Source of the DNA: Halichondria panicea
Lineage: Eukaryota > Porifera > Demospongiae > Suberitida > Halichondriidae
Length of the DNA stretch: 64,000 nucleotides
Direction: 5' to 3'
NCBI RefSeq assembly: GCF_963675165.1
Contig: NC_087379.1
Span: 1,678,201-1,742,200, forward strand
Part shown: positions 3,540 to 39,487 of the stretch, one piece after another
How the letters are laid out: every line of letters begins with the position of its first letter
Position numbering within the stretch: the first letter of the stretch is position 1
The notes under the pieces: model-generated
What the model was told of the DNA's origin: nothing
Databases searched by the model: none
What the model saw: only the letters and a program-made list of their open reading frames with translations
Program-made: the position numbers and the translations under genes

Positions 3540-3589
3540 CTCTGCTCTCTCTGTAAATTTACCTCTGATCAAGCTTTCTATATATACAG
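3540..3589 (+). other. KK1 untranslated leader exon (3' end)
   Basis: The sequence 'aagctttctatatatacag' followed by gtaagat (3590) is a splice donor. The acceptor 'ttcccacag' ends at 3671, and ATG follows 11 bases later at 3683. The same leader core occurs before KK2 (ends 11376), KK3 (21877) and KK4 (30024), which supports a real noncoding first exon. The transcription start is not visible; the 5' limit is arbitrary. Confidence 0.65.
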
Positions 3590-3682
3590 GTAAGATAAAT
3601 TGCTTGAATACCATTTTAATTGGGCTTAGATATCCAGCTGGATTGCCTATTTAATATTGCTATTCCCACAGTAACGAAGACA

Positions 3683-5008
3683 ATGGCTGTAAATCCACAA
3701 GCTTTCGAGCAGTTCACTCTGAGACAAATTCGCATCACTGAGAATGAGTTGGGACATGGTTCTTACGCTGTTGTCATGGAGCTAGAGTATCGAGGACTGA
3801 AATGTGCCGGCAAGAAGCTTTACCGAGTTCTCTACGAGACTGGAATCGGGCATGCAGCACGAAGGTATCTGGAGGAGTGTCACCTGCTCAGTCAAACTAG
3901 GCACCCCAACATTGTTCAGTTTCTGGGAGTCTGTTTTGAGGAAGGCTCTCAGTTCCCCATCCTAGTCATGGAATTCCTCCCCACCAACTTGACCAGCTGT
4001 CTCGAGCGCTACGGTATTCTCCCCGATGAGATCAACTTCTCCATCCTCCATGATGTCTCACTGGGCCTGGTCCACCTCCATGGCCAAACACCAGTCATTG
4101 TGCACAGAGACCTCTCAGCCAACAATGTCCTCTTGTCCACCAATATGACGGCCAAGATATCCGATCTGGGAGTTGCTCGAATATTGAACCTCACCCCCCT
4201 TCAAGTGAGTCGAATGACGGAGACCCCTGGTACCCCAGCGTACATGCCCCCCGAAGTGATGGTTGCCAACCCCCACTACGACACCAGTGTGGATGTGTTC
4301 TCCTTTGGAATCATGATGATTCACACCTTCACAGCAGAGTGGCCACTACCAAGTATCGGCCAGACACGAATCGATCCTGTTAATCCTGACAGACTGATAC
4401 CAGTGACAGAAGCTGAACGACGTGAAGAGTTTCTTCGGAAGATTCCACCAGACCACCCTCTGATGGACCTCATCATGCGCTGTCTCAGCAACAACCCTCA
4501 GCGAAGGCCTAGAGCAGCGGAGATAGTGGGTCGGATGGTTGGTGTGGTACTTGAACACCCTCCCTCCTTTGAGAACAGAGTGGAGATGCTCCAGCGAGTG
4601 AGTGCTCTACTGACAGAGAATAGGGAGCTTGAGGAGGAGTTTGTGAGGAAGGACTCGGCAATCCAGGAGAAAGCAGGAGAGAATGAGGCACTGGCGGAGG
4701 AAAAAAGACGACAAGAGGAAGAAAGTGAAAACACTGTCGAGCGTATGCAGTTGGTGCACTCTGTTGAAGCCGAACAACATCAAGCTATCATTGAAAATCT
4801 TAAAGGCCAGTTGATTTTCAATCAGGACATGATGGCTAAACTAGAAACTCAATATATACAACTCACTGAAGAGGTGGAGCAACAAATTGCTCACAAAGAT
4901 TTGATGCTTGCCTCTAAGGATTCTTACCTTCAGAAGAAGGAAGCCACCATTCAGAGTTTAAACGACCAGCTCACCAAAACCAGAGACTACCTGACCAGCA
5001 AACCACAG
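3683..5008 (+). CDS. KK1 exon 2: TKL-like protein kinase and coiled coil
   Basis: Codes for 442 residues, spliced in phase 0 to the kelch exon at 5901 (746 aa in total). Residues about 16-290 form a protein kinase: glycine loop GHGSYAVV (24-31), Lys44 in CAGKKL, Glu64/65 in RYLEEC, catalytic loop HRDLSANN (141-148, Asp143), metal-binding DLG (161-163) instead of DFG, and PPE (189-191) in place of APE. HRDLSANN and the overall pattern suggest a tyrosine-kinase-like (TKL) Ser/Thr kinase; substrate is unknown. Residues about 292-442 are charged, heptad-like coiled coil, likely for oligomerisation. The start is the ATG 11 nt after the acceptor at 3671; an upstream in-frame ATG (3620) lies in the intron. 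The exon ends CAG|gtgagc. No signal peptide or membrane segment, so probably intracellular. First of four near-identical tandem copies. Confidence 0.9.
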
Positions 5009-5900
5009 GTGAGCTCATCAACACTGTACCACTAAGTGCACACATCTAAAATATCCTTTTTCTTATTTTATCGCCACCCTAATTAATAGAAGTGCCAAGT
5101 CTGTTCCAATTGATTTTTTTTGCATTGTCTCGGTATGAAAATTGCCCTGTACATTATAGTGGCTTGTGTTCGGGGAAGGGCTATGTGTATTAACAATGGT
5201 GTACTCGTTATGTTCTTACGGTATACCATAGAATAAAGAATTGGAAGGAAGTGGTGCACGTGACCATTTAATACACAGAGGCCTCGAAAACTATCCGCTT
5301 TTCGTCATATTTTTGCCGGGTAATTCGCTCGTAATAAGAAAGCTGTGTTTCCCCGAGACATCATCCCTTCAGCAATTACGCCTTATTCTGTGAGCCACGT
5401 GTGGTACTAGCTAATGACTAACAACACCCAGTAAAAGGAAACATACACAGTAGAGTTATAAGCTTCAAAGTGATATTTTAGGGTCTTTGATTGCTAAACG
5501 TGTATATATATAAGCATCTTGGTAAAATAGGTATAGATCTTTAAATAGAAGTGAGCTGCACAGAATAAGCACATCTATTTATTCTCCACAGTGTGTAGAA
5601 ATATAGGCATCAGCTTGGCTACCTCGCAAACCACGCCACTTACAGATGCTTGGCTAAAGACAGCCTCTATTGAACCGCGGGGAAGAGCGGATGTTCATTC
5701 AAGGGTACTTTCGTTTCCAATCCCTCTATCCTTTATCTCTGGGTATAATTATTATACTAAGCACCTCTAATATAATCTATCTATATAAGCGTCAAATTAG
5801 TTCGTATTTGTATCCAAATATATATTTTTTACCGCTATAAAAAATAACTTTGTATCAGAACTCTGTCATCTGGCAATGCCGTATTCTCCAGTCCCTACAG
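5009..5900 (+). other. KK1 intron 2, with retained-intron stop at 5033-5035
   Basis: Starts gtgagc and ends 'gtccctacag'. The first 27 nt stay in frame and code for VSSSTLYH then TAA, identical in all four copies. Retention or lack of splicing would therefore give a kinase/coiled-coil protein without kelch. A transposon fills 5227-5741; nothing else is seen. Confidence 0.75.
5227..5741. mobile_element. CATAG-family element in KK1 intron
   Basis: The left end CATAGAATAAAG and right end ATCTCTG are weak inverted repeats. The interior (e.g. 'tttttgccgggtaa', 'ccgagacatcatc') matches the element at 31368-31883. The flanks ggtatac (5220-5226) and ggtataa (5742-5748) are a 6/7 match, consistent with the family's 7-bp duplication. 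Confidence 0.65.
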
Positions 5901-6815
5901 GTTCAGTTATCCTACAGTCAGTGCTCTGAGGCTCCAGTAGAGATGTATGGTGGACTAGCGGTAACCATCAATGGCAAGGTCTACTATGGTGGAGGAAACT
6001 GTGATGACGATGATGGCATATACTGTGTCCACTGTTACGATCCGCCACAAGATGTCTGGTTAACTCTGCCTAGACTTCCTGTACACTATGTTGGTCTAGG
6101 GGAGGTCAAAGGTGAACTGGTAGCAGTTGGCGGTGTGGATTCATCCCGCTCTATATCCAATGTAGTACATGTGTTTGACAAAGGAAGAAACTGGAAACGG
6201 ACGATCCCACCCATGCCCACAGCGAGGTATTCAGCAGCATTTGTTAGTCTCCCAACACATCTGGTCGTAGCAGGAGGTCTGTTAGACTCTGGTGACTACA
6301 CTGATAATGTTGAGATCTACAACATCAGCACCTCCCAGTGGAGTGAGACAGACAGACTACAGTATGCTTGTTTTGGCCCAAGAGGAATTGTCTACAACAA
6401 CACAGTGTACCTAATGGGGGGACGTGTTGGCAAGAATCTAAACAAGGTGTGTGCTGCTCAAGTCGACAAGCTCATCTCAGCAGACCGACAGGATAATGGG
6501 AGTGCCAACAAAGCCGACTCTGTCTGGAATACACTATCCAACACACCGTCTTACCAGCCCTCCCCTGTAACGATATCCGACACCCTCTTTGCTGTTATTG
6601 GAAAGGATAGTGAAAATAAAACCACTCAAAAGATCTACGCCTACTCATCCTCGATGGACTCCTGGCTCTACATTGGTGATCTACCATCTCCTATAGCATA
6701 CGCTGCCACTGTGTCACTGTCTCCAACAGAGTGCCTTGTAATCGGAGGACTGAACAATGAATGTGAAAGACAATCAACTGTGCATAAAATTAAAAGTGCA
6801 ACAACCATTTCTTGA
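5901..6815 (+). CDS. KK1 exon 3: kelch beta-propeller, C-terminal
   Basis: Codes for 304 residues, starting GTT CAG after the acceptor 'gtccctacag' (5900) in the same phase as the kinase exon's CAG end. Six kelch-type blades are recognisable by their glycine pairs: YYGGG, VAVGG, VVAGG, YLMGG, AVIGK (degenerate in this copy; GG in the other three) and LVIGG. Kelch propellers bind partner proteins, so this part probably recruits or senses a ligand for the kinase. Blade 1 holds an acidic run (CDDDDG) whose length differs in every copy. Stop TGA at 6813-6815. The ATG at 5850 upstream is intronic. Confidence 0.88.
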   Translation, partial: VQLSYSQCSEAPVEMYGGLAVTINGKVYYGGGNCDDDDGIYCVHCYDPPQDVWLTLPRLPVHYVGLGEVKGELVAVGGVDSSRSISNVVHVFDKGRNWKRTIPPMPTARYSAAFVSLPTHLVVAGGLLDSGDYTDNVEIYNISTSQWSETDRLQYACFGPRGIVYNNTVYLMGGRVGKNLNKVCAAQVDKLISADRQDNGSANKADSVWNTLSNTPSYQPSPVTISDTLFAVIGKDSENKTTQKIYAYSSSMDSWLYIGDLPSPIAYAATVSLSPTECLVIGGLNNECERQSTVHKIKSATTIS

Positions 6816-6937
6816 GTGTTTTGGTTTGTATAGCTCAAATGTTTATGATAATTGTTGAAATAATCATAATCATGTTGCATAGATACTTGCATGGTACACG
6901 ATAGAGGTTACCATGCATGCAGTGCATCATACAACGT

Positions 6938-7292
6938 AGTCGGGCGCCGCCGCCCTCTACCGTTGCCCGGAAGGAGGTCGGGAATCAAGCCTATCCACAG
7001 TTTTGTTCTGTTGTGTTGGAATTCCAACAATTCCACCAGCTCCAATCAGATTGCAGTATCTCAAGGGGATTGATCACACCCACTCAACTGTACCACGTGT
7101 GAATTTTACACACGTTGGATTGACTGAGAGGCGAGGCCAACACCCACTTTAATAAATTATATTCATCGCTATTGGTTAGCACCCACATAGAATGAATGAT
7201 ATTTCATGATACTATTGCGTAACAGGCCAGAACAAAACTGTTGATGAACTTGATTCCCGACCTCCTTCAAGGAGGGCGGTGACGCTCGACTA
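6938..7292. mobile_element. Fold-back MITE, second member of the 1433-1650 family
   Basis: The ends 'agtcgggcgccgccgccctc' and 'gctcgact' are inverted. The direct 10-mer catacaacgt flanks it at 6928-6937 and 7293-7302, and it is reversed relative to 1433-1650. It lies between the KK1 stop and the 3' end of the CWF19L1 copy. Confidence 0.82.
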
Positions 7293-7416: not shown

Positions 7417-7951
7417 TCATGATTCAAAGTTCTTCCTCATTTCTAGAGCAACTTTCGTCTTCTCGTCCTTTGTCGCAAGACACAACTTCCAGTTGATCTG
7501 ATTGGGCAGATTCAGAACGAGAGGATCAGCCAACACCTCCCTGCAGCCGATATTGCAACCAATAAAAGCATTCAACATGTCATTAATCGGTTTTTAATTA
7601 CCTTCCAAATTGGAGAGAGAAACGCCCGTACGTATTGTTCCAGGAACTAGAACAGTTTGTGTGTTCACTCGATAGGTATGATGACAGATTTGTGGAAGAG
7701 ACATTTGCTGAGTATGCAATAGAAAGGTTAGAGGTGTGCATTGTCGGTGTGACGAGACTCACGGATATGTTCTTACCTACTCACTTGAGAGTGCTGTTTA
7801 CCTCATGAGCTCACAGTAGTAGAAACATACTATAACCTATATTCAGTGATCTGGTTGTTTGTCTGCGTGAGTTGGTGAGGAAATGGTCTTGTGAACATAT
7901 TTCCCCCATCATCAAATTCTGCCAGGATTTATGAAACACCAGTGTACGCAA

Positions 7952-8050: not shown

Positions 8051-11000
8051 GGGTGGGGTGTGTGTGTGTGTGGGGGAGCGGTGTGTGTAGCAAAACTAAC
8101 TAGCAATGTGTTACCTCTGAGAGTGGTGTTTCCCTGGGCACAGTCTCAAGCCACACCCCCATACTCCACCCATAATCTATGAAGGCTTGTCTCAGAGCAT
8201 CAGATGGAATCTTGGTCACTGGAATAACCTACAGTGACCACCATTACCATCACACACTAACCATACACAACTATCAGTCAACACATCTACCATACACACA
8301 CTAACATGTACCGTATTTATACAATGTTTCCACATAATTATGTAAGTTTGCGAATGCTAATGGCTTCACATATACAATTTCAAATACCTATAATATTGTA
8401 TGACATTATGATCTTTGCTAGATGGTCTCTTTCTAAATCGTTTAAATTGATTTCACAGAATTCAAGTTATGGCAGCTGAGTGAAAGACTCCTGAATCATT
8501 AATAAAACAGAGAAATCGCATTACAACTTCCCCTCAAAACATTGTAGCCTAATCTCAACACACCAACCATACAGTATCAATCACATCACATGATAATACG
8601 GCCTTGACGGTACTGACCTGTAGTTGAAGATGTTGTGATTTGTAGTTTCTCTCGAAGATGACACACAACTGATCTTTGCTGTTGAAGTACTTCCTCAGAG
8701 CACTCTTAAACTTTCCAAGCTCCTCCAAAACCTCCTACAGTAATAGAGCACGGGTCATACAGTGTACATGCATGATATATGGTATAGTGATCTCTGCTTA
8801 CACAGTGGGCATACCAACAGTGGCTGTACTAAAGAGGTGGTCTGCTAACACAGGTCCAAACACATGCTATGGAGACTTTGGGGCCCATTAACCTGGCTGT
8901 ATTATAGAGGGTGGTCTGCTTACAGGCTGACCACTACAGACTGCTAAATAGTACACACAGAGCATGGAAACATACTCTCCACAATACAAACAATGACTAT
9001 ACACACACAGCAGTGGTACACACAGCACATGAACTCACTGGTGGTGCGTCAGTGGAGGCTGCATAGTGACCGATGGGTAGGACCAGCACATGCTCTGGTA
9101 CAATCCCACCCTTGGATAAAGCCAGGTACGTCTATATAGGGTATACAATACAAACTGTTAGTGGTCTGCTATTTGTGAGCTACATTGTATTTTGTATGTG
9201 CAGTATTAGCAAGTACAACACACTCTATCTCACATGATCTCCGATGGAGACCACGAGATGTTTCTCCACCTCCTTGCCCCCCAGACAGAACCAGCACGGC
9301 CCCCTGGGCTGGGGAGGGGGTCGTCTCTTTGCAGGAGGTCCTCCGTCCTGTTGTCTCTTCTGTTTGCGATGAGCTGAATCAAGAGCTCTCTGATCAAAGA
9401 AGAAGTTAGGCCCAGCCTCCTCTTGAGACTCCCTCTGCACAGTGTGTGGGAGTAGGTACACAATAAACTTTGACCTCTGCAAACATAGTGGATTAAAACT
9501 ACAACACAAATGGTGATATCTAGAGATAGGACTCTCAGAGTGCTACATAACGCAAGTCTTTGTTTGGAAAATTGGACAATCAATACACATGTATATTGTC
9601 CCTTCAACGATGGCTAGACATTATGGGATAATAGTTTTTTTTTACCAAAGATTTGACTAGTTCAGTGTAGGGACAGTTGGTGGCAGTGGGTGGTTGCTGA
9701 GTCAGTTCTTTCTCGTCCATGGAGCTCATGGGTGTGACAGAGAATGCATACAGGTACTGCAGGTATGAAGATGATGTCATCATTAATAACATGTAATACT
9801 AATGGGACTAGAATGATTTCAACTCACTCTTTTCTTCTTGTCTGGATTTCCCACTTGAGCCAAAGTTAAGAATCGTGTCACATGATGTGGCTTGCCTTGA
9901 AGGATTTTATGATTCCTGCATGAAATGAAGCACAATACAGTTAGCATCAAAAGTTGTGGAGGTATTACTGTGTAGGGATTTAAAGATGAGGATATGTAAC
10001 ATGTACGTATAATTATAATTAAGCGTTAAATGAAGTATCTTTGAACGGTCAAAACTTAACCGTTGGTCAAATCACATTGAAAAATTTAACATACCATCTG
10101 AACAGACTTCAAAAAATTAGATAACAGAACTCTGTTAAAGGAGCAAACTCAAGTACTCTAATATTACAGGAATGGACGTACTGTACCTGTACGGTATTCT
10201 CTCATAGAAGGTTTGGTGTAGAGCTGCAAAAATGGTAGCGTGGCTTGAGACACATGGCCAGTTTACTCAGAGGCTTTGCCCCCGCTGCACTCAGGTCCAG
10301 TCCGTCCTGCATGAGCATAAGGTATTATTAAGGTATTGGTCCATCCTACAATAACTGGGAGCTAGGTCTCATAGGAGTCACTGTGAACTTGTCCACTGCC
10401 CCGGGCCAATCAGAGGTGAGGAGAATGTCCACTCCACGGTAGCCCTCTCCACTGCACTGACCCTCCAGCCAGGACACATCAGAGTCAGTGAAATATGGTC
10501 GCTAGAGGGAGAAACAAAAACTAGTTCAACAACTTCTCCAGGTGATTGGGAAGAGAACTGACCAATTGATTATCTCCCTTGTTTTGATGCAGATAGGTCC
10601 TCCCCTGGTAGCTCCCACTGAGATAGGCCACCCTCAGACCACTGGATGCACTGTACACTCCACGCTGACCTGTAATGGAGTGTGACTCATGTGTGTACTG
10701 ATAGAGTGGTTAACAACATGCATACACTGTACCTAGACATGTGACATTGGGGCAAAGCTCTCCTCCATCACGTGACAAGTCTCCATAGAACTAGCCATGC
10801 TCAGTCCAACACGAGCCAAGGATGAACGTTGGTAGAGGCACTGTGCATGGGGGTGTAATAAATGTCAGAGAAAGGTGATTTAATATCGTTTAATTACCTG
10901 TTTCCACCCCCTCCCGATACTTGCTCCACTCCTTCTGGCAGTCAGAGCTAAAGAAAGATCCAACACACAACAGCAGCTACATAAAGGGACAATAAATGCA

Positions 11001-13971: not shown

Positions 13972-15582
13972 ATGGCTGTAGATCCACAAGCTTTCGAGCA
14001 GTTCACTCTGAGACAAGTTCGCATCACTGAGAATGAGTTTGGACGAGGTTCCTACGCTGTTGTCATGGAGCTAGAGTATCGAGGACTGAAATGTGCCGGC
14101 AAGAAGCTTCACCGAGTTCTCTACGAGACTGGAATCGGGCATGCAGCACGAAGGTATCTGGAGGAGTGTCGCCTGCTCAGTCAAACTAGGCACCCCAACA
14201 TTGTCCAGTTTCTGGGAGTCTGTTTTGAGGAAGGCTCTCAGTTCCCCATCCTAGTCATGGAGTTCCTCCCCACCAACTTGACCAGCTGTCTCGAGCGCTA
14301 CGGTATTCTCCCCGATGAGATCAACTTCTCCATCCTCCATGACGTCTCACTGGGCCTGGTCTACCTCCATGGCCAAACACCAGTCATTGTGCACAGAGAC
14401 CTCTCAGCCAACAATGTCCTCTTGTCCACCAACATGACGGCCAAGATATCCGATCTAGGGGTTGCTCGAATATTGAACCTGACCCCGAGTCGAATGACGG
14501 AGACCCCTGGCACCCAAGCGTACATGCCCCCCGAAGCGATGATTGCCAACCCCCACTATGACACCAGTGTGGATGTGTTCTCCTTTGGGGTCATGATGAT
14601 TCACACCTTCACAGCACAGTGGCCAAAACTAAATATCGGCCCCAACAGAATCGATCCTACCAATCCCAATGGTCTGATACCAGTGACGGAAGCTGAACGA
14701 CGCGAAGAGTTTCTTCAAAAAATTCCCCCAGAACACCCTCTGATGGACCTCATCATGCGCTGTCTCAGCAACAACCCTCAGCAAAGGCCTAGAGCAGCGG
14801 AGATAGTGGGTCGGATGGTGGGTGTGGCACTTGAACACCCTCCCTCCTTTGAGAACAGAGTGGAGATGCTCCAGCGAGTGAGTGCCCTACTGACAGAGAA
14901 GAGGGAGCTTGAGGAGGAGGTTGTGAGGAAGGACTCGGCAATCCAGGAGAAAGTAGGAGAGAACGAGGCACTGGCGGAGGAGAAAAGACGACAAGAAGAA
15001 GAAAGTGAAAACACTGTCGAGCGTATGCAGTTGGTGCACTCTGTGGAAACTGATCAGTTTAAATTGGAAAACGAAGATCTTAAAGGTCAACTCGAAGCTA
15101 AAGAGACTATTGTTAACACGAAAGATGAATTTATTATTTCAAGAAATGCTAGGATAGTGGAATTAGAAACTCGATGTAAGCAACTCACTGAAGAGGTGGA
15201 GCAACAAATTGCCAACGTCAACTACACTCAAAACGAGCTTGTATCTAAAGCTACGAAAATAGCTCAACTGGAAACAAATCTGGAACAGGAGCAAGCTTGT
15301 TTAGCTGACAAAAACTCTATTATTGCTCACAAAAATTTGACTATTGCTGACAATCAAAACGAACTGGTATCAAATGCTCTGAAAATTACTCAACTGGAAA
15401 CAAATGTCACCAATCTCACTGCACAAGTGGAACAAGAGCAAGCTTTTTTAGCTGACATTATTGCTCACAGAGAATCGATGCTTGCCTCCAAGGACACTTC
15501 CCTTCAGAAGAATAAAACCACCATTCAGAGTTTAAACAACCGACTCACCAAAACTAGAGACTACCTGACCAGCAAACCACAG
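13972..15582 (+). CDS. KK2 exon 2: TKL-like protein kinase and long coiled coil
   Basis: Codes for 537 residues, joined in phase 0 to 16331 (843 aa in total, the longest copy). ATG follows the acceptor 'attcacacag' (13960) by 11 nt. The kinase domain has glycine loop GRGSYAVV, Lys in CAGKKL, HRDLSANN and DLG. Compared with KK1 it lacks three residues of the activation segment (LTPSRMTE against LTPLQVSRMTE) and has the alternative lip GTQAYMPPEAM. The coiled coil is about 95 residues longer than in KK1 and contains an internal tandem duplication: NELVSKATKIAQLETN and NELVSNALKITQLETN. The exon ends CAG|gtgagc at 15582; read-through gives VSSSTLYH and a stop at 15609. All catalytic residues are present, so an active kinase is likely. 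Confidence 0.9.
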
Positions 15583-16280: not shown

Positions 16281-16330
16281 CACATGCAACACACAAGTTA
16301 TTGACTCTCTGTATTCTCCAGTACCTACAG

Positions 16331-17251
16331 GTTCAGTTGTCCTGCAGTCAGTGCTCTGAGGCTCCAGTTAAGATGTTTGGTGGACTAGCGGTAACCATCA
16401 ATGGCAAGGTCTATTATGGTGGAGGAGTCTGTGATGACGATGATGACGAGTACTGTGTCCACTGTTACGATTCGCTACAAGACGTCTGGTCAACTCTGCC
16501 CAGACTTCCTGTATGCTATTTTGATCTAGGAGAGGTAAACGGTCAACTGGTAGTAGTTGGTGGTAAGGATTCATCCGGCTCTAGATCCAATGTGGTACAT
16601 GTGTTTAACAAAGGAAGGAACTGGAAACAGACGATCCCACCCATGCCCACAGCGAGGATTTCACCAGCAGTCGTTAGTCTCCCAACACATCTTGTCGTAG
16701 CAGGAGGTGTGGTCTCTGGTGACTACACTGATAATGTTGAGATCTACAACATCAGCACCTCCCAGTGGAGCGAGACAGACAGACTACCGTATGCTTGTTG
16801 TGACCAAAGAGGAATTGTCTACAACAACACAGTGTACCTAATGGGGGGGGGATCTGACGGTAAGCATCTAAACAAGGTGTTAGCTGCTCAAGTTGACAAG
16901 CTCATCTCAGCAGAGCGACAGGATGATGGGAGTGCCAACAAAGCCGACTCGGTCTGGAATACAATATCCAACACACCGTCTTATTACCCCTCCCCTGTAA
17001 CGATATCCGACACCCTCTTTACTATTGGTGGAAAAGATAGTGGTGAAGCCACTCAAAGGATCTACGCCTACTCAACCTCGATGGACTCCTGGCTCTATGT
17101 TGATGATCTACCATCTCCTATAGCATACGCTGCCACTGTGTCACTGTCTCCAACACAGTGCCTTATGATTGGGGGACGTAACAATGAAGGACAAAAACAA
17201 TCTACCGTCTATAAAATTAGTAACGCAGGCGCAGCAACTATTTTGGCTTAA
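16331..17251 (+). CDS. KK2 exon 3: kelch beta-propeller, C-terminal
   Basis: Codes for 306 residues, entered in phase 0 after the acceptor 'gtacctacag' (16330). Six blades with glycine pairs YYGGG, VVVGG, VVAGG, YLMGGG, FTIGG and LMIGG. Blade 1 carries CDDDDDEYC. Loop residues differ from the other copies (e.g. CYFDLGEVNGQLVVVGGKD), while blade cores are nearly identical. Stop TAA at 17249-17251. Intron 2 is only 748 bp here. Confidence 0.88.
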   Translation, partial: VQLSCSQCSEAPVKMFGGLAVTINGKVYYGGGVCDDDDDEYCVHCYDSLQDVWSTLPRLPVCYFDLGEVNGQLVVVGGKDSSGSRSNVVHVFNKGRNWKQTIPPMPTARISPAVVSLPTHLVVAGGVVSGDYTDNVEIYNISTSQWSETDRLPYACCDQRGIVYNNTVYLMGGGSDGKHLNKVLAAQVDKLISAERQDDGSANKADSVWNTISNTPSYYPSPVTISDTLFTIGGKDSGEATQRIYAYSTSMDSWLYVDDLPSPIAYAATVSLSPTQCLMIGGRNNEGQKQSTVYKISNAGAATILA

Positions 17252-18310
17252 GATTAATGTTCAAGGATAAAAATTGTCTTAAAAGATTGATGAAATGTTT
17301 ACATTGCATGAACAGAAGCACGTTAATTGTGACAATCGGCTTCATGCAGTAGTCTCATGAATCCTCCGCCACGTACAGAGAGTCCGGCTGATCATGAGAC
17401 TAGGGCTTCAGCAGATTGCAAAGTCATTATACCCATTTTGATCTACATTACCCATTGAACTACATAATTATATATACTTGCATGCTGACAGATTATCAGT
17501 CTAATCACACAACCATTTTTTCACATAAATATTGCTTGTATCATAATTATTATCATAATGACAATACAATACATATTTAAATCATAGATACTATAAAATA
17601 CTGTAATTTATAGTATCTATGGTTAAATCGGAAATAGTAATCTACAGAAGTGAAGGTGAAAGCGAGACTGGATAAAATTAATCAATGGGAAGTCAAATTT
17701 CTTCCTCATTTCTAGAGCAGCTTTTGTCTCCTCGTCCTTTGTTGCCAGACACGACTTCCAGTTGATCCGATTGGGCAAATTCAGAACGAGAGGAGCAGCC
17801 AACACCTCCCTGCAGCCGATATTGCAACCAATAAAAGCATTCAACATGTCATTAATTGGTTTTTAATTACCTTCCAAATTGGAGAGAGAAACGTCCGTAC
17901 GTATTGTTCCAGGAACTAGAACAGTTTGTGTGTTCACTCGATAGGTATGATGACAGATTTGTGGAAGAGACATTTGCTGAGTATGCAATAGAAAGGTTAG
18001 AGGTGTGCATTGTCGGTGTGACGAGACTCACGGATATGTTCTTACCTACTCACTTGAGAGTGCTGTTTACCTCATGAGCTCAAAGTAGTAGAAACATACT
18101 ATAACCTATATTCAGTGATCTGGTTGTTTGTCTGCGTAAGTTGGTGAGAAAATGGTCTTGTGAACACATTTTTCCCATCATCAAACTCTGCCAGGAAGTA
18201 TGGGACACCAGTGTATGCAAGCTGTGTGTGTGTATGTATGTGTGTGGGAGGGGGGAGGGAGTGTGTGTAGCAGATTCTGGCAAAGAGAAGTATCGATCAC
18301 TAAAAGGCTT

Positions 18311-18896: not shown

Positions 18897-19783
18897 TAAA
18901 AGGCTTAGAGAATGGTACGTAGAACATGGTACAGCTATGATGTGTGTGTGTTACGTACCTCTGAGGGTGGTGTTTCCCTGGGCACAGTCTCAAGCCACAC
19001 CCCCATACTCCACCCATAATCTATGAAGGCTTGTCTCAGAGCATCAGATGGAATCTTGGTCACTGGAATAACCTACAGTGACCACCATTACCATCACACA
19101 CTAACCATACACAACTATCAGTCAACACATCTACCATACACACACTAACATGTACCGTATTTATACAATGTTTCCACATAATTATGTAAGTTTGCGAATG
19201 CTAATGGCTTCACAAATACGATTTCAAAGACCTATATTGTATGACACCACAATCTTTGCTACATGGCCTCTTCTAAAATCCTAAAACCGTTGAAATTAAA
19301 GTCAAGTTATGGCAGCTGAAAGAGTCCCTGAACCATTGAATGATTATAAAGTGATTTGTTTCCCCTCAAAACCTTGTAGCCTAATCTCAACACACCAACC
19401 ATACAGTATCAATCACATCACATGATAATACGGCCTTGACGGTACTGACCTGTAGTTGAAGATGTTGTGATTTGTAGTTTCTCTCGAAGATGACACACGA
19501 CTGATCTTTGCTGTTGAAGTACTTCCTCAGAGCACTCTTAAACTTTCCAAGCTCCTCCAAAACCTCCTACAGTAATAGAGCACAGGTAATACAGTGTACA
19601 TGCATGATATATGGTATAGTGATCTCTGCTTACAGAGTGGGCAGACCAACAGTGGCTGTACTAAAGAGGTGGTCTGCTAACACAGGTCCAAACACATGCT
19701 ATGGAGACTTTGGGGCCCATTGACCTGGCTGTATTTATAGAGGGTGGCCTGCTTACAGGCTGACCACTACAAACTGCTAAATA

Positions 19784-22050: not shown

Positions 22051-23555
22051 ATGGCTGTAAATCCACAAGCTTTCGAGCAGTTCACTCTGAGACAAATTCA
22101 CATCACTGAGAATGAATTTGGACGAGGTTCCTACGCTGTTGTCATGGAGCTAGAGTATCAAGGACTGAAATGTGCCGGCAAGAAGCTTTACCGAGTTCTC
22201 TACGAGACTGGAATCGGGCATGCAGCACGAAGGTATCTGGAGGAGTGTCACCTGCTCAGTCAAACTAGGCACCCCAACATTGTCCAGTTTCTGGGAGTCT
22301 GTTTTGAGGAAGGCTCTCAGTTCCCCATCCTAGTCATGGAGTTCCTCCCCACCAACTTGACCAGCTGTCTCGAGCGCTATGGTATTCTCCCCGATGAGAT
22401 CAACTTCTCCATCCTCCATGACGTCTCACTGGGCCTGGTCTACCTCCATGGCCAAACACCAGTCATTGTGCACAGAGACCTCTCAGCCAACAATGTCCTC
22501 TTATCTACCAACATGACGGCCAAGATATCCGATCTGGGGGTTGCTCGAATATTGAACCTGACTCCCCTTCAAGTGAGTCGAATGACGGAGACCCCTGGCA
22601 CCCCAGCGTACATGCCCCCCGAAGTGATGGTTGCCAACCCCCACTACAACACCAGTGTGGATGTGTTCTCCTTTGGGATCATGGTGATTCACACCTTCAC
22701 AGCAGAGTGGCCACTACCAAGTATCGGCCCCACCAGAATCGATCTCCTGCTAATCCTGACAGACTGATACCAGTGACGGAAGCTGAACGACGTGAAGAGT
22801 TTCTTCGAAAAATTACCCCAGACCACCCTCTGATGGACTTCATCATGCGCTGTCTCAGCAACAACTCTCAGCAAAGGCCTAGAGCAGCGGAGATAGTGGG
22901 TCGGATGGTGGGTGTGGCACTTAAACACCCTCCCTCCTTTGAGAACAGAGTGGAGATGCTCCAGCGAGTGAGTGCCCTACTGACAGAGAAGAGGGAGCTT
23001 GAGGAGGAGGTTGTGAGGAAGGACTCGGCAATCCAGGAGAAAGCAGGAGAGATCGAGGCACTGGCGGAGGAGAAAAGACGACAAGAGGAAGAAAGTGAAA
23101 ACACTGTCGAGCGTATGCAGTTGGTGCACTCTGTGGAAACTGATCAGTTTAAATTGGAGATTGAAGATTTTAAATGTCAACTCGAAGATAAAGAGATAAT
23201 TTTTAACATGAAAGATACTACAATCGCTAGGTTAGAAACTCGATGTAAGCAACTCACTGAAGAGGTGGAGCAACAAATTGCCAACGTCAACTACACTCAC
23301 AACGAGCTTGTATCTAAAGCTACGAAAATAGCTCAACTGGAAACAGATGTCACCAATCTCGCTGCACAAGTGGAACAGAAGCAAGCTCGTTTAGCTGACC
23401 AAAACACTATTATCGTTCACAAAGATTTTACTATTGCTGACAAAGATTCGATGCTTGCCTCCAAGGACACTTACCTTCAGAAAAATAAAACTACCATTCA
23501 CAGTTTAAACGACCAACTCACCAAAACTAGAGACTACATGACCAGCAAACCACAG
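22051..23555 (+). pseudogene. KK3 exon 2: kinase and coiled coil, 2-bp frameshift
   Basis: Same gene as KK1, but two extra bases near 22744-22747 (gatctcctgc against gatcctgt) shift the frame after residue 230 and give TGA at 22765-22767. The first frame keeps the whole N-lobe, HRDLSANN, DLG and PPE but loses the last helices of the C-lobe. The downstream frame stays fully open to the donor at 23555, with the conserved RCLSNN and the coiled coil, and the kelch exon is intact, so the lesion is young or an assembly error. The length without the shift would be about 501 residues. Read-through tail VSSSTLYH is conserved (stop 23580-23582). Confidence 0.8.
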
Positions 23556-25014: not shown

Positions 25015-26004
25015 GTTCAGTTGTCCTACAGTCAGTGCTCTGAGGCTCCAGTGAAGATGTCTCGTGGGCGAGCAATAACCATCAATGGCAAGGTCTACTA
25101 TGGTGGAGGAGTCTGTGATGATGAGTACTGTGTCCACTGTTACGATCCGCCACAAGACGTCTGGTCAACTCTGCCCAGCCTTCCTGTACGCTATTTTGGT
25201 CTAGTGGAGGTCAAAGGTGAACTGGTAGCAGTTGGCGGTATGGATTCATCATTCTCTAGATCCAACGTGGTACATGTGTTTAACAAAGGAAGAAACTGGA
25301 AACGGACGATCCCACCCATGCCCACAGCGAGGGATTCACCAGCAGTCGTTAGTCTCCCAACGCATCTGGTCGTAGCAGGAGGTGATGTGGCCTCTGGTGG
25401 CTACACTGATAATGTTGAGATCTACAACATCAGCACCTCCCAGTGGAGTGAGACAGACAGACTACCGTATGCTTGTCGTGGCCTAAGAGGAATTGTCTAC
25501 AACAACACAGTGTACCTAATGGGGGGATTTGACCTCTTTATTCTAAACAAGGTGTGTGCTGCTCAAGTCGACAAGCTCATCTCAGCAGACCGACAGGATG
25601 ATAGGAGTGCCAACAAAGCCGACTCTGTCTGGAATACAATATCCAACACACCGTCTTACCGGCCCTCCCCTGTAACGATATCCGACACCCTCTTTGCTGT
25701 TGGTGGAATGGATAGTGAACGTAAAGCCACTCAAATAATCTACGCCTACTCATCCTCGATGGACTCCTGGCTCTACGTTGGTGATCTACCATCTCCTATA
25801 GCACACGCTGCCACTGTGTCAATGTCTCCAACAGAGTGCCTTATGATTGGGGGAGAAAACAATAATGAAGAAGATCAATCTACTGTGTATAAAATGAGAA
25901 CCACAACAACTATTTCTTATTTATATTATGGTATGATATTTTGTATGACTCAAATCAAACTCTGGACTCAAATGTTGATAACAGATGAAAGGTTTTGTGT
26001 GTAA
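25015..26004 (+). CDS. KK3 exon 3: kelch beta-propeller, C-terminal
   Basis: Codes for 329 residues from GTT CAG after the acceptor at 25014, in phase with the coiled-coil frame of the upstream exon. Six blades: YYGGG, VAVGG, VVAGG, YLMGG, FAVGG, LMIGG. It has the shortest acidic run (CDDEYC) and a tail about 25 residues longer than the other copies because the usual stop is lost (ends ERFCV, TAA 26002-26004). Translation would need the frameshift upstream to be bypassed. Confidence 0.8.
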   Translation, partial: VQLSYSQCSEAPVKMSRGRAITINGKVYYGGGVCDDEYCVHCYDPPQDVWSTLPSLPVRYFGLVEVKGELVAVGGMDSSFSRSNVVHVFNKGRNWKRTIPPMPTARDSPAVVSLPTHLVVAGGDVASGGYTDNVEIYNISTSQWSETDRLPYACRGLRGIVYNNTVYLMGGFDLFILNKVCAAQVDKLISADRQDDRSANKADSVWNTISNTPSYRPSPVTISDTLFAVGGMDSERKATQIIYAYSSSMDSWLYVGDLPSPIAHAATVSMSPTECLMIGGENNNEEDQSTVYKMRTTTTISYLYYGMIFCMTQIKLWTQMLITDERFCV

Positions 26005-32569: not shown

Positions 32570-34135
32570 ATGGCTGTAAATCCACAAGCTTTCGAACAGT
32601 TTACTCTGAGACAAATTCGCATCACTGAGAATGAGTTTGGACGAGGTTCCTACGCTGTTGTCATGGAGCTAGAGTATCGAGGACTGAAATGTGCTGGCAA
32701 AAAGCTTTACCGAGTTCTCTATGAGACTGGAATCGGGCATGCAGCACGAAGGTATCTGGAGGAGTGTCACCTGCTCAGTCAAACTAGGCACCCCAACATA
32801 GTCCAGTTTCTGGGAGTCTGTTTTGAAGAAGGCTCTCAGTTCCCTATCCTAGTCATGGAGTTCCTCCCCACCAACTTGACCAGCTGTCTCGAGCGCTACG
32901 GTATTCTCCCCGATGAGATAAACTTCTCTATCCTCCATGACGTCTCACTGGGCCTGGTCTACCTCCATGGCCAAACACCAGTCATTGTGCACAGAGACCT
33001 CTCAGCCAACAATGTCCTCTTGTCCACTAACATGACAGCCAAGATATCTGATCTGGGGGTTGCTCGAATATTGAATCTGACCCCCCTTCAAGTGAGTCGA
33101 ATGACAGAGACCCCTGGCACCCCAGCGTACATGCCCCCCGAAGTGATGATTGCCAACCCCCACTACGACACCAGTGTGGATGTGTTCTCCTTTGGGATCA
33201 TGATGATTCACACCTTCACAGCAGAGTGGCCACTACCAAGTATCGGCCAGACACGAATTGATCCTGCTAATCCCAATGGTCTGATACCAGTGACGGAAGC
33301 TGAAAGACGTGAAGAGTTTCTTCGAAAGATTCCCCCAGACCACCCTCTGATGGACCTCATCATGCGCTGTCTCAGCAACAACCCTCAGCGAAGGCCTAGA
33401 GCAGCGGAGATAGTGGGTCGGATGGTGGGTGTGGTACTTGAACACCCTCCCTCCTTTGAGAACAGAGTGGAGATGCTCCAGCGAGTGAGTGCCCTACTGA
33501 CAGAGAAGAGGGAGCTTGAGGAAGAGGTTGTGAGGAAGGACTCGGCTATCCAGGAGAAAGCAGGAGAGATCGAGGCACTGGCGGAGGAGAAAAGACGACA
33601 AGAGGAAGAAAGTGAAAACACTGTCGAGCGTATGCAGTTGGTGCACTCTGTGGAAACTGATAAACTAGTAACTGAACACAGTGTAGAGATAGAGGATCTC
33701 AGAGTTGCATTGGAGTTTAAAGAATCATTGGCTCCCACGTGCACAAAAGATGCACTGGTGAATTCTAAAGATACTACCATCGCTAGGTTAGAAACTCGAT
33801 GTAAGCAACTCACTGAAGAGAGGAAGCAACAAATTGCCAACACTAACAACGAGCTTGTATCTAAAGTTACGAAAATAGCTCAACTGGAAACAGATGTCAC
33901 CAATCTCACTGCACAAGTGGAACAAGAGATAGCAGACAAAAACTATCTTATCACCTACAAAGATTTGACTATTGCTGACAAAAACTCCACTATTTTTGCT
34001 AAAGATTTGATTATCACTAACAAAGATTTGATGCTTGCCTCCAAGGACACTTCTCTTCAGAAGCATAAAACCACCATTCAGAGTTTAAATGACCAACTTA
34101 CCAAAACCAGAGACTACCTGACCAGCAAACCACAG
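32570..34135 (+). CDS. KK4 exon 2: TKL-like protein kinase and coiled coil
   Basis: Codes for 522 residues, phase 0 to 38576 (825 aa in total). ATG is 11 nt after the acceptor at 32558. The kinase motifs are GRGSYAVV, CAGKKL, HRDLSANN, SDLG and MPPE, all intact. The proximal coiled coil is like the other copies up to MQLVHSVET, then diverges (its own segment includes DLRVALEFKESLAPTCTKD) and ends in repeated 'xxADKN/AKDL' heptads. The last 30 residues (TIQSLNDQLTKTRDYLTSKPQ region) are again the same as in the other copies. Donor CAG|gtgagc; read-through tail VSSSTLYH with stop at 34160-34162. Confidence 0.9.
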
Positions 34136-34208
34136 GTGAGCTCATCAACACTGTACCACTAAGTGCACACATCTAATTTATATCGCTACTCCAATAGAAG
34201 TGCCAAGT

Positions 34209-34478
34209 CAGTGGCGTAGGCAGAGGGGGGCTGACGGGGCTAGAGCACCCCCATTTGTGTTTCATTAACTCCAAACCAATCTATTCTGCACTGTACTGCA
34301 TGATTGTGTATAGTTACTAGAATGGAAATGTGGGCAGGGTCATCTACTGCGCATGCTTACTGCTGATGAAAAGTGATGACCTTTTTTTTAGGTGAAATTC
34401 CAAGCTATTCAGCGCCTGCTCTGGCCCTGCTCAATGGATTTGAGCCCTGCCCTTCCCAAAATCCTGGCTACGCCACTG
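34209..34478. mobile_element. CAGTGGCGTAGG-ended element
   Basis: Starts cagtggcgtaggcag and ends 'tcctggctacgccactg'. The flanks share caagt(c). Sequence at 37171-37190 ('gtgccaagtctaaagctta') looks like the uninterrupted site. hAT-like termini; the duplication is shorter than 8 bp as far as can be read. Confidence 0.65.
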
Positions 34479-34639
34479 CAAGTCTAAAGCTCATAATGAA
34501 TTGATGGCCATGCATGACAACTGTGTTGTATTGCAGCGTGTAATCCAGGCTATGTGATTCTTGTTAGTGTGTCACTTACTTCCATTGTAGTGAGCCACAG
34601 GCATATCTCCTATTGCCACCCTAACTAGTGTTCAATCTG

Positions 34640-34686
34640 CACTGTAAAAACAAATGGGTTATTTCAACCAATTTGTTTTTACAGTG
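34640..34686. repeat. 47-bp hairpin element
   Basis: cactgtaaaaacaaatgggt...accaatttgtttttacagtg with a 7-nt loop. The surrounding repeat ('actagtgttcaa...gctgt(g)ctaatgcctctcgcc') is continuous at 37434-37470, so the hairpin is an insertion. Confidence 0.7.
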
Positions 34687-35126
34687 TGGCGCTGTACTAA
34701 TGCCTCTCGCCATGTTTTTGCTTTCGCTGAAAAGTATTAGAGTTTTATATTAGTTTCTATTTTATATTAAAGTTAGCTTATCTATATAAAGTCGCTGAGA
34801 AGAAAAGACTTATTTACATGCATCTATTGTTGTATTATGTGGCTTACTAGGACCTCAAGAAAGAAGAAAATTGATTCTTCCAGGATCTGTAGTTCAGTGT
34901 ATATAATGTCTAAGAAGAAAAGACCTGTGTACATGCACATTGTTATCTATGGTAGTGTTTTGTGGCTTACCAGGCCTTCAAGATAAAGATGATTCTGCCA
35001 GGAGGATCTGGATCTGGATCTGGATATTATTTCTCACACATGGGGGAATGAGCGCGCATGCGCATTACATTCACAGGAATAATTAAAGGGTGTATCCAAA
35101 GAGATCAATTTCACAAATGCTACAGA

Positions 35127-35755
35127 GTTTTTCAGGTTGCTTGCAACAATTAATTGTGGAAATTTAACTCACGTGATGTTTTGCTCACGTGCCTTATGCC
35201 TTAATTAGCTTATAAGAGTGGGTGGGAGAGAAATGACAGCAAAAAACAGCAGAAGTTGTTCAGTGTTCATACAAATGAAGAGTGATAATCTGACACTGTA
35301 ATGCTGTGCAATATATTTTGTCAAATTCGTACAGGTTCGTCTAGACTTTTTAAAGACAGATCCTCAGAAAATACTCAACTCAGCAGTAAAACAGAAGAAT
35401 TGGGAGCCAGCCTACAGGATTCTAGGATTGCAGTATATATTAAATTTTGTTGGAGAGCATATAGGATTTCTCCAGCATACACACAATTCTTTAATAATAA
35501 TTATTGTATGTATGCTGGTAAATTATGCTCTCCAGCAAGTAATACTACACTACAGATCTAAGATCCCACTCACTTCTTCTCTGAGGGTCTAGCAACTTAA
35601 AGTCTAGTACAAAGCTTTGAATGTGTGTTGTTCAGCTAGCTACAATCTAGCTACAATGCCTGCCCCTCCCACTTTAATTTTGACTTATAAGGCTGAGGCA
35701 CGTGAGCAAAACACACGTGAGTCAAATTTCCACAATGCAAGCAACCTGAAAAACT
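35127..35755. mobile_element. Fold-back element, about 100-bp arms
   Basis: The left arm gtttttcaggttgcttgcaa...'tttgctcacgtgcctta' matches the right arm in reverse complement (35640-35755). An inner hairpin lies at 35463-35545 ('ctccagcatacac' / 'gtatgctggta', 'ctctccagc'). No transposase seen. Confidence 0.7.
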
Positions 35756-36834
35756 ATGTTCTGCTAGCTAGCTGTTTTAATGGTGATATTAACAGGAACG
35801 TTTCCATATGCTGACTTGGCACTTTCTAATTATGATCGCCCTCTATATATTTTCTTGTGCTATCAGGAGCACAAGAGTGCTCCCTGGCCCTCTGGAGTGC
35901 CCCTGGTGCTATCAAGAGCCTTATAAATTTATTGTATGTAAGCCAATCCTATTAAATACATCATGGCTGAGTTAGTGGTTCATAATTATGGTTTCAGTAT
36001 TGATCATCTTGCATGTTGGAGGAGGCATGCATAAACATTTGAAACACATGCTTTGCTTCCAAGTTTCATTGATTACCACAGTCATGGTACAGAGACTATT
36101 AATGCACATTCGATGTAAACTTGTAACAGAAATTATGTTCAGGGAAGTGAAGTGAAGTGAAAAGTTATCATGTATAGTGAGGCTGCATGTATCCCACGTT
36201 TCTTCCTCTGGAAACTCTCAGCTGAAAAGTGATAATTGTTATTAGAATAAAAAAAAAGCTGCTTACTTTTTTATTGAGATGCATCACTGGCAGCCATAAC
36301 CCTTCTGTCTCCAGCCCTATATAGCGATAGAAAAAGACATTCGGCTATAGGATAGTCATACCACGCTCCAAACAGGTATAAACCAAGAAGATGCTCACGA
36401 GTTCATGCTGGCAATTCTTGACATAATCAACAGCCACCTACATACAGTACACTACTACCTGTAGTTGTATAGAAGCAAGTATTGATAAAGTGTAGTAATA
36501 ATCAGACTGAGGTTCCTCCTTTTTATATACCTTTTACCTTCTTACAAGTAGATGAGTCTGGTCCACAGTAGTGTATATGCATGAGTCTAGTCTCTGGAAG
36601 AATCATTGACATGAGCCGCGCCGCTCTGCCTCACTAGAACCAAGAGTTTATGATAGATAAACTCTTCCTAGAACTACATGTAGCCAGCTGATTTAAAATT
36701 GCATATAGAGTGCTGAGTCAGCAACAAAATAATAGTGTCAATATTCGTTGAGTCAGCATATGGAAACCTTCCTGTTAATATCATCATTCCCTGTTATTAT
36801 CGCCTTTCTTTTTAACAGATATTTTCTGAGTATT

Positions 36835-38425
36835 GTAGCTAACAAAAAGCTAGCGTTTTAGTGCAAGGCTAACTCATATGTTGAATAGAAAGTTTGTGCG
36901 GACAGATGATGCTATGAAAGATTCTGAAGAGACTGCAACAGCCGTCAATGTGAGTCAAACTAGCCATAACTCGAGAAAGAAGCTTTAGTTTGCTAATCCA
37001 CGAATCAATATCCAAGAGAACGTGGCTAGAAGCCTATAGAAGCTGTTAGCTTTCGTCGCATTGCAACCGTTGAGCAGTTACAGCTGGAACAGACACACAG
37101 ACCACACACAGTCAGCTTTACCGTATCCCTCTTGCGGCTACGCCTCGAGGCATAATAAAAGCTAGTGCCAAGTCTAAAGCTTACTGTTATTGAACGCCAA
37201 ATCATTTTATTTGTAATGCTTGTGTAATTAGAATGACAGTTGTTGTGTATTATTATGTGGCTTATAATCTATGTGTACAATACAGTCATAGCTATGCGTA
37301 CACGTACATGTATAACGTGTACAATTATTTCTATAGTATAATTAGCCATGTACGTGAATTTCACCACTCCAATATAAGAGCCAAATTAGAATAATTAATT
37401 TGTGTCCCACAGGATCGATAACTGATAATAACTAGTGTTCAAGCTGGCGTTGTGCTAATGCCTCTCGCCATGATTTGCTTTCGCTCAAAAGTATAGAAGA
37501 GGAAAAAGTGTATAAAATAATCTGTCTAAAATGATTTGCATCTATTCAATTGTATAATTATGGTATCATTGTTGTGTTTTGTGGCTGCTTATATATACCA
37601 GGATCTTAAGGATCTAGGAAGCAACAAAGAAGAAGATTTTGTTTTCAATTAATTATAAGCGGAAGTGCATAATTTTACTAATTATTTCATAAAGTTAGCT
37701 TATCTATATAAAGTCACTGAGAAGAAAAGACTTATTACATGCATCTATTGTTGTATTATGTGGCTTTAATACTAGAACCTCAAGAAAGAAGAAAATTGAT
37801 TCTTCCAGGATCTGTACTTCAGTGTATAATTATAATATCTAAGAAGAAAAGACTTGTGTACATGCATATTGTTATCTATATTGTTATATAGTAGTGTTTT
37901 GTGGCTTACCAGGCCCTCAAGAAAAATATAATTCTGCCAGGAGGATCTGGATCTGGATCCTTGGATATCACACGTGGGGAATGAGCGCGCATGCGCATTA
38001 CATCCACAAGAATAATTAAAGGGTGTGTCCAAAGAGATCAATGGCTACTGCTAGCTAGCTGTTTTAACAGGTATTTTCTGAGTCTTGTAGCTAACAAAAA
38101 GCTAGCGCTTTAGTGCAAGGCTAACTTATATGTTGAATAGAAAGTTTGTGTGGACAGATGATGCTATGAAAGATTCTGAAGAGACTGCAACAGCCTTCAA
38201 TGTGAGTCAAACTAGCCATAACTCGAGAAAGAAGCTTTAGTTTGCTAATCCACGAATCAAAATCCAAGAGAACGTGGCTAGAAGCCTATAGAAGCTGTTA
38301 GTTTTCGTCGCACTGCAACCGTTGAGCAGTTACAGCTGGAACAGACACACACACACACAGACAGACAGACACACACACAGTCAGCTTTACCGTATCCCTT
38401 GTGCGGCTACGCCTCGAGGCATAAT
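36835..38425. repeat. Two further copies of the GCCTCGAGGCATAAT repeat
   Basis: 36835-37160 and 37440-38425 both end 'ggctacgcctcgaggcataa'. The second is more complete and resembles 12520-13235 end to end, including 'gagcgcgcatgcgcatta'. A CA/GACA microsatellite precedes each end. Confidence 0.7.
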
Positions 38426-38575
38426 AATTTTTTTAGTAACCTTGTAACATTATCATCTGGCGTTAATATGTGATTAGGGTTACATTTCAAATGCCCTTAA
38501 TTACTAGCTACACAATCATAAATGTCTTCCATTACACACAAGTTATTGACTCTCTGTATTCTCCAGTCCCTACAG

Positions 38576-39487
38576 GTTCAGTTGTCCTACAGTCAGTGCT
38601 CTGAGGCTCCAGTGAAGACGTCTGGTGGGCAAGCGGTAACCATCAATGGCAAAGTCTACTATGGTGGAGGAGGCTGTGATGATGATGATGACAACTACTG
38701 TGTCTACTGTTACGATCCGCCACAAGACGTCTGGTCAACTCTGCCAAGATTTCCTGTACGATATTTTGGTCTAGGGGAGGTCAAAGGTGAACTGGTAGCA
38801 GTTGGCGGTGTGGATTTATCCCGCTCTACATCCAATGTAGTACATGTGTTTAACAAAGGAAGGAACTGGAAACGTACGATCCCACCCATGCCCACAGCGA
38901 GGTTTTCATTAGCAGTCGTTAGTCTCCAAACACATCTGATTGTAGTAGGAGGTGATGTGGGCTCTGGTGACTACACTGATAATGTTGAGATCTACAACAT
39001 CAGCACCTCCCAGTGGAGCGAGACAGACAGACTACCGTATGCTTGTATTGGCCAAAGAGGAATTGTCTACAACAACACAGTGTACCTAATGGGGGGATCT
39101 GACGGCAAGAATCTAAACAAGGTGTGTGCTGCTCAAGTCGACAAGCTCATCTCAGCAGACCGACAGGATGATGGGAGTGCCAACAAAGCCGACTCTGTCT
39201 GGAATACAGTATCCAACACACCGTCTTACCGGCCCTCCCCTGTAACGATATTCGATACCCTCTTTGCTGTTGGTGGAAAGGATAGTGGTGAAGCCACTCA
39301 AAGGATTTACCCCTACTCATCCTCGATGGACTCCTGGCTCTACGTTGGTGATCTACCATCTCCTATAGCATACGCTGCCACTGTGCCACTGTCTCCAACA
39401 CAGTGCCTTATTATTGGGGGAATGAACAAAGAAAGAGAAAGACAATCGACCGTCTATAAAATTAGTATCACAAAAACTGTTTTTTGA
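38576..39487 (+). CDS. KK4 exon 3: kelch beta-propeller, C-terminal
   Basis: Codes for 303 residues from GTT CAG after the acceptor at 38575. Six blades: YYGGGG, VAVGG, VVGGD, YLMGG, FAVGG, LIIGG. Blade 1 holds CDDDDDNYC. Stop TGA at 39485-39487. An in-frame ATG at 38522 is intronic, as the phase-0 splice to the kinase exon is conserved in all copies. Confidence 0.88.
   Translation, partial: VQLSYSQCSEAPVKTSGGQAVTINGKVYYGGGGCDDDDDNYCVYCYDPPQDVWSTLPRFPVRYFGLGEVKGELVAVGGVDLSRSTSNVVHVFNKGRNWKRTIPPMPTARFSLAVVSLQTHLIVVGGDVGSGDYTDNVEIYNISTSQWSETDRLPYACIGQRGIVYNNTVYLMGGSDGKNLNKVCAAQVDKLISADRQDDGSANKADSVWNTVSNTPSYRPSPVTIFDTLFAVGGKDSGEATQRIYPYSSSMDSWLYVGDLPSPIAYAATVPLSPTQCLIIGGMNKERERQSTVYKISITKTVF

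Follow-up and report, generated by a model that had tools for sequence, protein, structure and literature searches.

A large tandem family of predicted kinase-coiled coil-kelch proteins in the sponge Halichondria panicea, with diversified kelch residues

Background

How animals distinguish friend from foe when they have no antibodies is an unanswered question, and a pressing one in sponges, with their dense microbial communities. The 64,000-nucleotide stretch studied here (the "window"; positions 1,678,201 to 1,742,200 of contig NC_087379.1, called C3 below, 8,483,533 bases) comes from the 131-Mb genome of the demosponge Halichondria panicea, order Suberitida, and carries, between window positions 3540 and 39487, four plus-strand gene copies in which an exon for a kinase and a coiled coil is followed by an exon for a kelch domain. 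Do the two exons encode one protein, how large is the family to which the copies belong, and what might a kinase do with a kelch domain of its own? We find that annotation and homologues join the two domains, that the family is far larger than the window, and that amino acid change in the kelch exon is concentrated at two positions per blade. The explanation we favour, and to which we give rather better than even credence on this sequence evidence, is that the genes encode cytosolic recognition kinases whose kelch pocket has been diversified to bind many targets.

Results and discussion

Exon plan and kinase-kelch fusion

A preliminary description of the region, made from its letters alone, gave all four copies one plan (untranslated leader, kinase/coiled-coil exon, kelch exon) with phase-0 joins, and as a whole it is partly confirmed. 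The donor AAACCACAG/GTGAGC is present in all four (at 5008, 15582, 23555 and 34135; the slash marks the exon border), as is the acceptor CTACAG/GTT (at 5901, 16331, 25015 and 38576); the joins have GT/AG ends and the kelch exons are in phase 0, again in four of four. A single frame runs from the ATG across the join to the stop in three of them, with starts at 3683, 13972 and 32570 and lengths of 747, 844 and 826 codons, respectively, stop included. Copy 3 has a 2-nucleotide insertion near 22745 relative to the other three, which the preliminary description missed and which breaks the frame from its ATG at 22051, so that its phase-0 join holds only locally; its kelch frame extends about 25–28 codons beyond the usual end. 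Copy 3 may be broken, may represent an allele, or may reflect a fault in the assembly. Chance occurrence of the splice sites is ruled out by genome-wide pattern counts: at up to three mismatches the 21-mer of the donor is matched 62 times and its reversed pattern 2 times, the 23-mer of the acceptor 52 times and its reversed pattern 0 times.

The kinase and coiled-coil exons, all on the plus strand, are 3683..5008 in copy 1, 13972..15582 in copy 2, 22051..23555 in copy 3 (interrupted as above) and 32570..34135 in copy 4 (522 aa). The kelch exons are open frames at 5901..6815 in copy 1 (from 5892 if, by analogy with RefSeq, a tandem acceptor 9 nucleotides upstream is used), 16322..17251 in copy 2, 25015..26004 in copy 3 with its C-terminal run-on, and 38576..39487 in copy 4, the last following a GT...AG intron at 34136..38575 and containing the twelve hypervariable codons treated below. 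RefSeq protein P0003, "dst1-like isoform X2 [Halichondria panicea]", matches both copy 2 exons without a difference (16331–17248 is exact, with YLQ before it). This model keeps the donor and the GT/AG ends first proposed for copy 2 and moves its join from 15582/16331 to 15582/16322, to an AG 9 nucleotides upstream that adds the three residues YLQ. Among RefSeq models this extra triplet reads SLQ in P0001, P0002 and P0004 and YLQ in P0003, and is absent from P0005, so two tandem acceptors are in use in the annotation. The leader exon is visible in part: an ACAG acceptor-like site lies 11 nucleotides before the ATG in all four copies, and the leader donor (ACAGGTAAGAT) is found in two of them (1 and 3) within the 400 nucleotides read. 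One RefSeq model, P0004, begins (residues 1–40) with a hydrophobic stretch that by eye is like a leader exon read as protein; either the annotation has slipped here or the start is an alternative one.

The proposal that kinase and kelch belong to one protein is supported by predicted proteins in the databases. RefSeq models join the two exons (for copy 2 exactly), and in twelve of the twelve proteins of our alignment A1 (P0001–P0005, P0037, P0038, P0045, P0047, P0048, P0055 and P0057) the kinase HRD motif precedes the kelch GG motifs. The last seven of these are ENA predictions that carry both domains (P0037 with 832 aa, P0057 with 889 aa and the other five with 623–662 aa) and are probably single open frames; by eye, ENA proteins P0039 and P0041 read past the donor into the apparent intron, and at this junction P0057 contains additional residues. 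Further kinase-kelch proteins have about 26–35% kelch identity, among them P0347 of the sponge Geodia barretti (order Tetractinellida; 54% of the kelch part covered). A domain order without counterpart elsewhere is ruled out, since actinobacterial records hold kinase-kelch proteins too.

Domains and predicted fold

The protein order is kinase (about 300 aa), coil, kelch. When the joined proteins were searched, a check that the preliminary description had suggested, Pfam found both Pkinase (6e-41 in copy 1 and 2e-40 in copy 4; positions 4–258 of the 263 in the profile covered) and Kelch_1 (1e-21 and 1e-24). The CAGKK, HRDLSANN, SDLG and MPPE motifs occur in all 19 intact genes compared below, with DLG in place of DFG; the catalytic lysine and the HRD, DFG-type and PE motifs are thus conserved, and kinase activity is putative. 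The nearest solved kinases are CTR1 and TNNI3K, then WNK close behind, plant receptor kinases, TAK1 and RIPK2, an order that comes from a search, not a tree, and with which the label "TKL-like" given earlier is compatible. Beyond residue 300 of the first coding exon the coil stretch spans 128–237 residues in the 19 genes, and a structure model of P0003 (mean predicted local distance difference test score, pLDDT, 63.4 overall) has long helices at residues 296–533.

The kelch part is predicted to be a six-bladed propeller. P0001 has six GG motifs, 27 of the 31 ten-residue blocks of the kelch part in the P0003 model have pLDDT values of 82–93, and the best Foldseek matches of the modelled domain are the kelch domains of NS1-BP and KEAP1. 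At E 0.01 Pfam reports no BTB, BACK, NACHT, NB-ARC, Death, RHIM or CARD domain in copies 1 and 4, and neither a membrane segment nor a signal peptide could be recognized by eye in the window's three intact proteins. RefSeq names of family members are WNK1-like, dst1-like and OSR1-like, with no mention of kelch, or uncharacterized.

Diversification at twelve kelch sites

We compared 19 intact genes: 15 from C3 860001–1060000, three from the window (the frameshifted copy 3 being left out) and one from contig C16. Their mean pairwise ratio of nonsynonymous to synonymous substitution rates (dN/dS) is 0.25 in the kinase, 0.41 in the coil and 0.91 in the kelch exon, where 49% of the sites are invariant. 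Twelve kelch sites are hypervariable, residues 17, 33, 62, 79, 110, 127, 158, 175, 219, 235, 266 and 283 of the copy 4 kelch exon, and all are within the 25 most variable of 303. They lie two per blade, as six pairs 16–17 residues apart with one member ahead of a strand and the other directly after the blade GG. Pairwise dN/dS at these sites is 2.6 (bootstrap 2.1–3.5) against 0.76 elsewhere, a C3 value that is circular, since the sites were picked from C3 variability; as they were chosen from the same data, independent checks matter.

One such check is offered by 24 kelch exons on contigs C1 and C6, which are about 31–34% identical to those of the window. Their whole-exon pairwise dN/dS is 0.99, with 5.1 at twelve sites (likewise read off the data) against 0.79 elsewhere. 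When the sites are mapped by alignment from C3, 11 of the 12 coincide with the sites that C1 variability itself picks out, and tree-based counts at the mapped sites give a ratio of 3.48 (N 178, S 11; binomial p 1.3e-6) against 0.89 elsewhere. The corresponding C3 ratios are 0.81 at other kelch sites and 0.26 in the kinase. The pairwise tests ignore gene conversion and the tree-based tests assume one tree. Three groups of homologues, of 5, 14 and 13 proteins with 12, 12 and 11 of the twelve sites alignable, supply variability rather than dN/dS: mean entropy at the mapped sites is 1.02, 2.02 and 2.40 against 0.26, 0.69 and 0.99 elsewhere, the peak falls at zero shift and is equalled at no shift from −8 to +8, and none of 20,000 random site sets reaches the observed mean in any group. 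Read as twelve-residue strings, 18 of 19 pockets in the C3 set and 23 of 24 in the C1/C6 set are distinct. The substitution patterns show diversification focused on two positions per blade, and such differences from copy to copy are the expectation for receptors that each recognize a different target.

Where on the propeller do these sites fall? When the kelch exon is aligned with KEAP1 (chain 1zgk), eight of the twelve can be placed, and the other four (219, 235, 266 and 283), which belong to the last two blades, lie outside the aligned region; read by hand, sites 17, 33, 62, 79, 110, 127, 158 and 175 correspond to G364, R380 (which we take to be a pocket residue), N414, S431, I461, F478, S508 and Y525. 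This numbering, part of which we have assumed, agrees with the Ile461-Gly462 of PMC6891428. The accessible portion of that article names Asn414, Ile461, Phe478, Ser508 and Tyr525 as ligand contacts, as well as Ser363, which adjoins 364; S431 is not among the contacts named there. All eight alignable sites map in or beside the KEAP1 ligand pocket, and together with the excess of amino acid change at the twelve sites this supports the earlier suggestion that the propeller is sensor-like.

Family size and associated modules

The four copies of the window are a small part of a much larger tandem family. On C3 we paired 55 donors and 51 acceptors (21- and 23-base patterns, each with at most two mismatches; six donors with three mismatches and the C16 donor and acceptor were left out). 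Fifty-one of the 55 donors meet the next downstream acceptor on the same strand before another donor, with 0 of the 51 acceptors left over, and the pattern starts are 213–4463 nucleotides apart (median 863). The fully read stretch C3 860001–1060000 has 18 exact donors, 17 of them with an acceptor; 15 of the 18 belong to intact kinase and kelch pairs, one has an in-frame stop, one has no start found by motif and one has no kelch exon. Within it, the kelch exons 1008082–1008981 and 1030129–1031028 share the same score and the same pocket string, a sign that a segmental duplication may have occurred recently. Divergent kinase-kelch pairs occur on C17, C10 and C11 and elsewhere on C3.

A second (type-2) set comprises 170 kelch-exon starts, which with 52 acceptor-type matches of the first kind brings the genome total to 222, a count of pattern matches and not of intact genes. 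Of the 100 type-2 starts listed, C1 holds 78 at 15.48–17.39 Mb and 3 near 11.0 Mb, and C6 the other 19. Two further types of kinase motif have 112 and 47 matches. The comparison took in 100 of the 170 kelch places, 100 of the 112 kinase places of one type and all 47 of the other; a listed same-strand kinase motif lies less than 5 kb upstream of 75 of these 100 kelch starts and less than 5 kb downstream of 14.

The modules in front of these kelch exons differ. At C1 15.5–17.4 Mb and C6 0.0–1.2 Mb there are very large kelch arrays, and one kelch exon type stands there behind two kinase types and a module with no recognized kinase. At one related array locus, L038, an open reading frame (ORF) with a Pfam Death domain (3.5e-14) is followed on one strand by a kinase ORF and a kelch ORF, and a 782-aa ORF with no Pfam hits stands ahead of all three (331–6694 of the locus); order and strand suggest that these are possibly one very large receptor gene. 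A Death domain could not be established for the Death-like N-termini of the HRDLCGDN type, for which Pfam and PDB matches stay below threshold. We also considered ten RefSeq kelch proteins, picked for having no precomputed kinase domain. N-termini were compared in five of the ten; P0241, P0243, P0250 and P0258 have a common N-terminal module that reads as CARD-like (by eye, not a tool result), and the start of P0279, also among the ten, looks like the end of a kinase. Since related kelch exons sit behind Death-like plus kinase, other kinase-coil or non-kinase modules, the variable exon has the look of a cassette for recognition that has been paired with signalling modules of several kinds.

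Possible function

If the genes do encode recognition kinases, each intact one would make a single, apparently cytosolic protein of TKL-like kinase, coiled coil (about 130–240 residues) and six-bladed kelch propeller. The central pocket of the propeller would bind a variable short peptide or protein of microbial, parasite or non-self sponge origin, the coiled coil would form dimers or higher oligomers, and ligand binding would gather the kinase domains for mutual phosphorylation, which might start an innate or allorecognition response like those of RIPK and IRAK. We infer the ligand binding, oligomerization, activation, pathway and biological role in this scheme, including the part in defence or self-recognition that the preliminary description had likewise inferred. 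A wider proposal, on which we are tentative and to which we allow slightly less than an even chance, is that demosponges have an undescribed innate recognition system of more than 200 germline loci: an exon for a hypervariable kelch "antigen pocket", variable at twelve residues, would have been joined by exon shuffling to kinase-coil, Death-like-kinase and non-kinase signalling modules and would give each sponge a large set of cytosolic receptors of differing specificities. A large repertoire of kinase-linked propellers in which diversification centres on the ligand pocket would add a new molecular class to the recognition receptors of animals, and would offer defined residues to test and an independent animal parallel to the fungal propeller NLR proteins.

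Several observations weigh against the recognition-kinase reading. The kinase part of the P0003 model is of low confidence, and RefSeq includes models of the kinase exon alone (P0021, 510 aa, which ends two residues past the join, and P0031, 455 aa). No listed kinase motif lies within 5 kb upstream of 25 of the 100 listed type-2 kelch starts, and Pfam finds no kinase in the ten RefSeq kelch proteins. Nor does Pfam call a Death domain in L035, a locus with the HRDLCGDN-type N-terminus; among 18 proteins, not all of that type, one has a Death match at E 0.17, and the sole PDB match is FADD at E 1.4. Apart from the pairwise values already qualified, the tree-based excess at the C3 sites is modest (1.66, p 0.011), three of the twelve sites are constant in the homologue group of five ENA proteins, and site 17 is nearly constant in the other two groups.

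The alternative that survives best, a minority possibility of some weight, is that the system serves allorecognition or gamete recognition specifically, distinguishing self from conspecific sponges and not detecting microbes; it overlaps the favoured reading, in which no particular target is specified. The size and clustering of the arrays and their almost entirely distinct pocket strings would suit it, and so would the fungal WD40 NLR genes with hypervariable propeller codons, which are allorecognition genes according to the accessible portion of PMC12222747. Inspection by eye of the three intact joined proteins revealed no secretion signal, which speaks against it.

It is rather unlikely, though worth considering, that the proteins are instead substrate-choosing kinases, whose kelch pocket recruits proteins for phosphorylation rather than sensing a trigger; diversification would then reflect many or fast-changing substrates, possibly proteins of invaders. 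KLHL kelch domains recruit substrates for ubiquitylation, a docking domain can hold proteins for a kinase to act on as well as for an E3 ligase, and the position of the eight alignable sites in or beside the KEAP1 pocket accords with this. On the other hand, the long coil between pocket and kinase would suit oligomerization more than close docking, and related kelch exons also occur on proteins with no recognized kinase.

A neutral birth-and-death array, in which unequal crossing over multiplies copies and nothing but a lack of constraint lets the loops vary, is already disfavoured and seems improbable. Tandem arrays, broken copies and the two C3 exons of equal score and pocket string at 1008082 and 1030129 would fit it, but dN exceeds dS at the mapped C1/C6 sites and does not do so at the remaining kelch sites of either set or in the kinase. 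Finally, that kinase and kelch are two separate, adjacent genes duplicated together is very improbable, as the conserved donors and acceptors alternate strictly with phase-0 joins, RefSeq fuses the exons and single predicted proteins elsewhere have both domains, although the kinase-only models P0021 and P0031 would fit it.

Relationship to known systems

Among known proteins KEAP1 and the KLHL family share the six-bladed kelch fold, and both the sequence search and Foldseek place KEAP1 among their best matches; it is a BTB-BACK ubiquitin adaptor, whereas sponge copies 1 and 4 have no Pfam BTB or BACK and carry a kinase ahead of the kelch. RIPK and IRAK kinases are not known to carry kelch; RIPK2 is among the solved kinases matched and a Death domain is linked to the family at L038, but copies 1 and 4 have none by Pfam. 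Dictyostelium Roco11 combines a TKL kinase and kelch in one protein, with a Roc-COR GTPase there. Actinobacterial proteins (Mycobacterium, Hoyosella) likewise have a kinase followed by kelch-type repeats, the named kinase-bearing matches being 24–29% identical over the kelch query; they differ in an HRDxKPxN-type kinase and in having more GG blade motifs (P0121, P0122 and P0142, three bacterial-type proteins).

The nearest parallel in logic is found in the fungal HNWD NLR proteins (HET-D and HET-E of Podospora), in which, by the accessible portion of PMC12222747, four codons per WD40 repeat are diversifying at the predicted propeller surface. Both systems would use a β-propeller sensor with a few hypervariable codons per repeat under diversifying selection. 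The sponge family is not an HNWD member: as far as that portion goes, the fungal repeats are WD40 and not kelch, they are kept alike within a gene by concerted evolution, and the partner is NACHT plus a HET effector, not a kinase.

The open-access literature searched yielded no description of a kinase-kelch family in sponges. In the portions accessible, PMC6993872 has kelch in a figure legend on Eph-like proteins, and PMC6208332 reports one kelch-motif gene down-regulated after microbial patterns in each of two sponges, with no link to the present family shown there; the word kelch occurs 0 times in the main text of PMC12345144.

Other features of the window

Three intergenic stretches of the window are repeated at 96–99% identity about 10.3–10.8 kb apart (10229–10528 and 20726–21025, 8528–8827 and 19360–19659, 7424–7723 and 17693–17992), so the duplicated unit takes in DNA beyond the exons given above. 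A second tandem cluster, five plus-strand ORFs of lecithin retinol acyltransferase (LRAT) type (PF04970), lies beside the kinase-kelch genes at 48831–62902.

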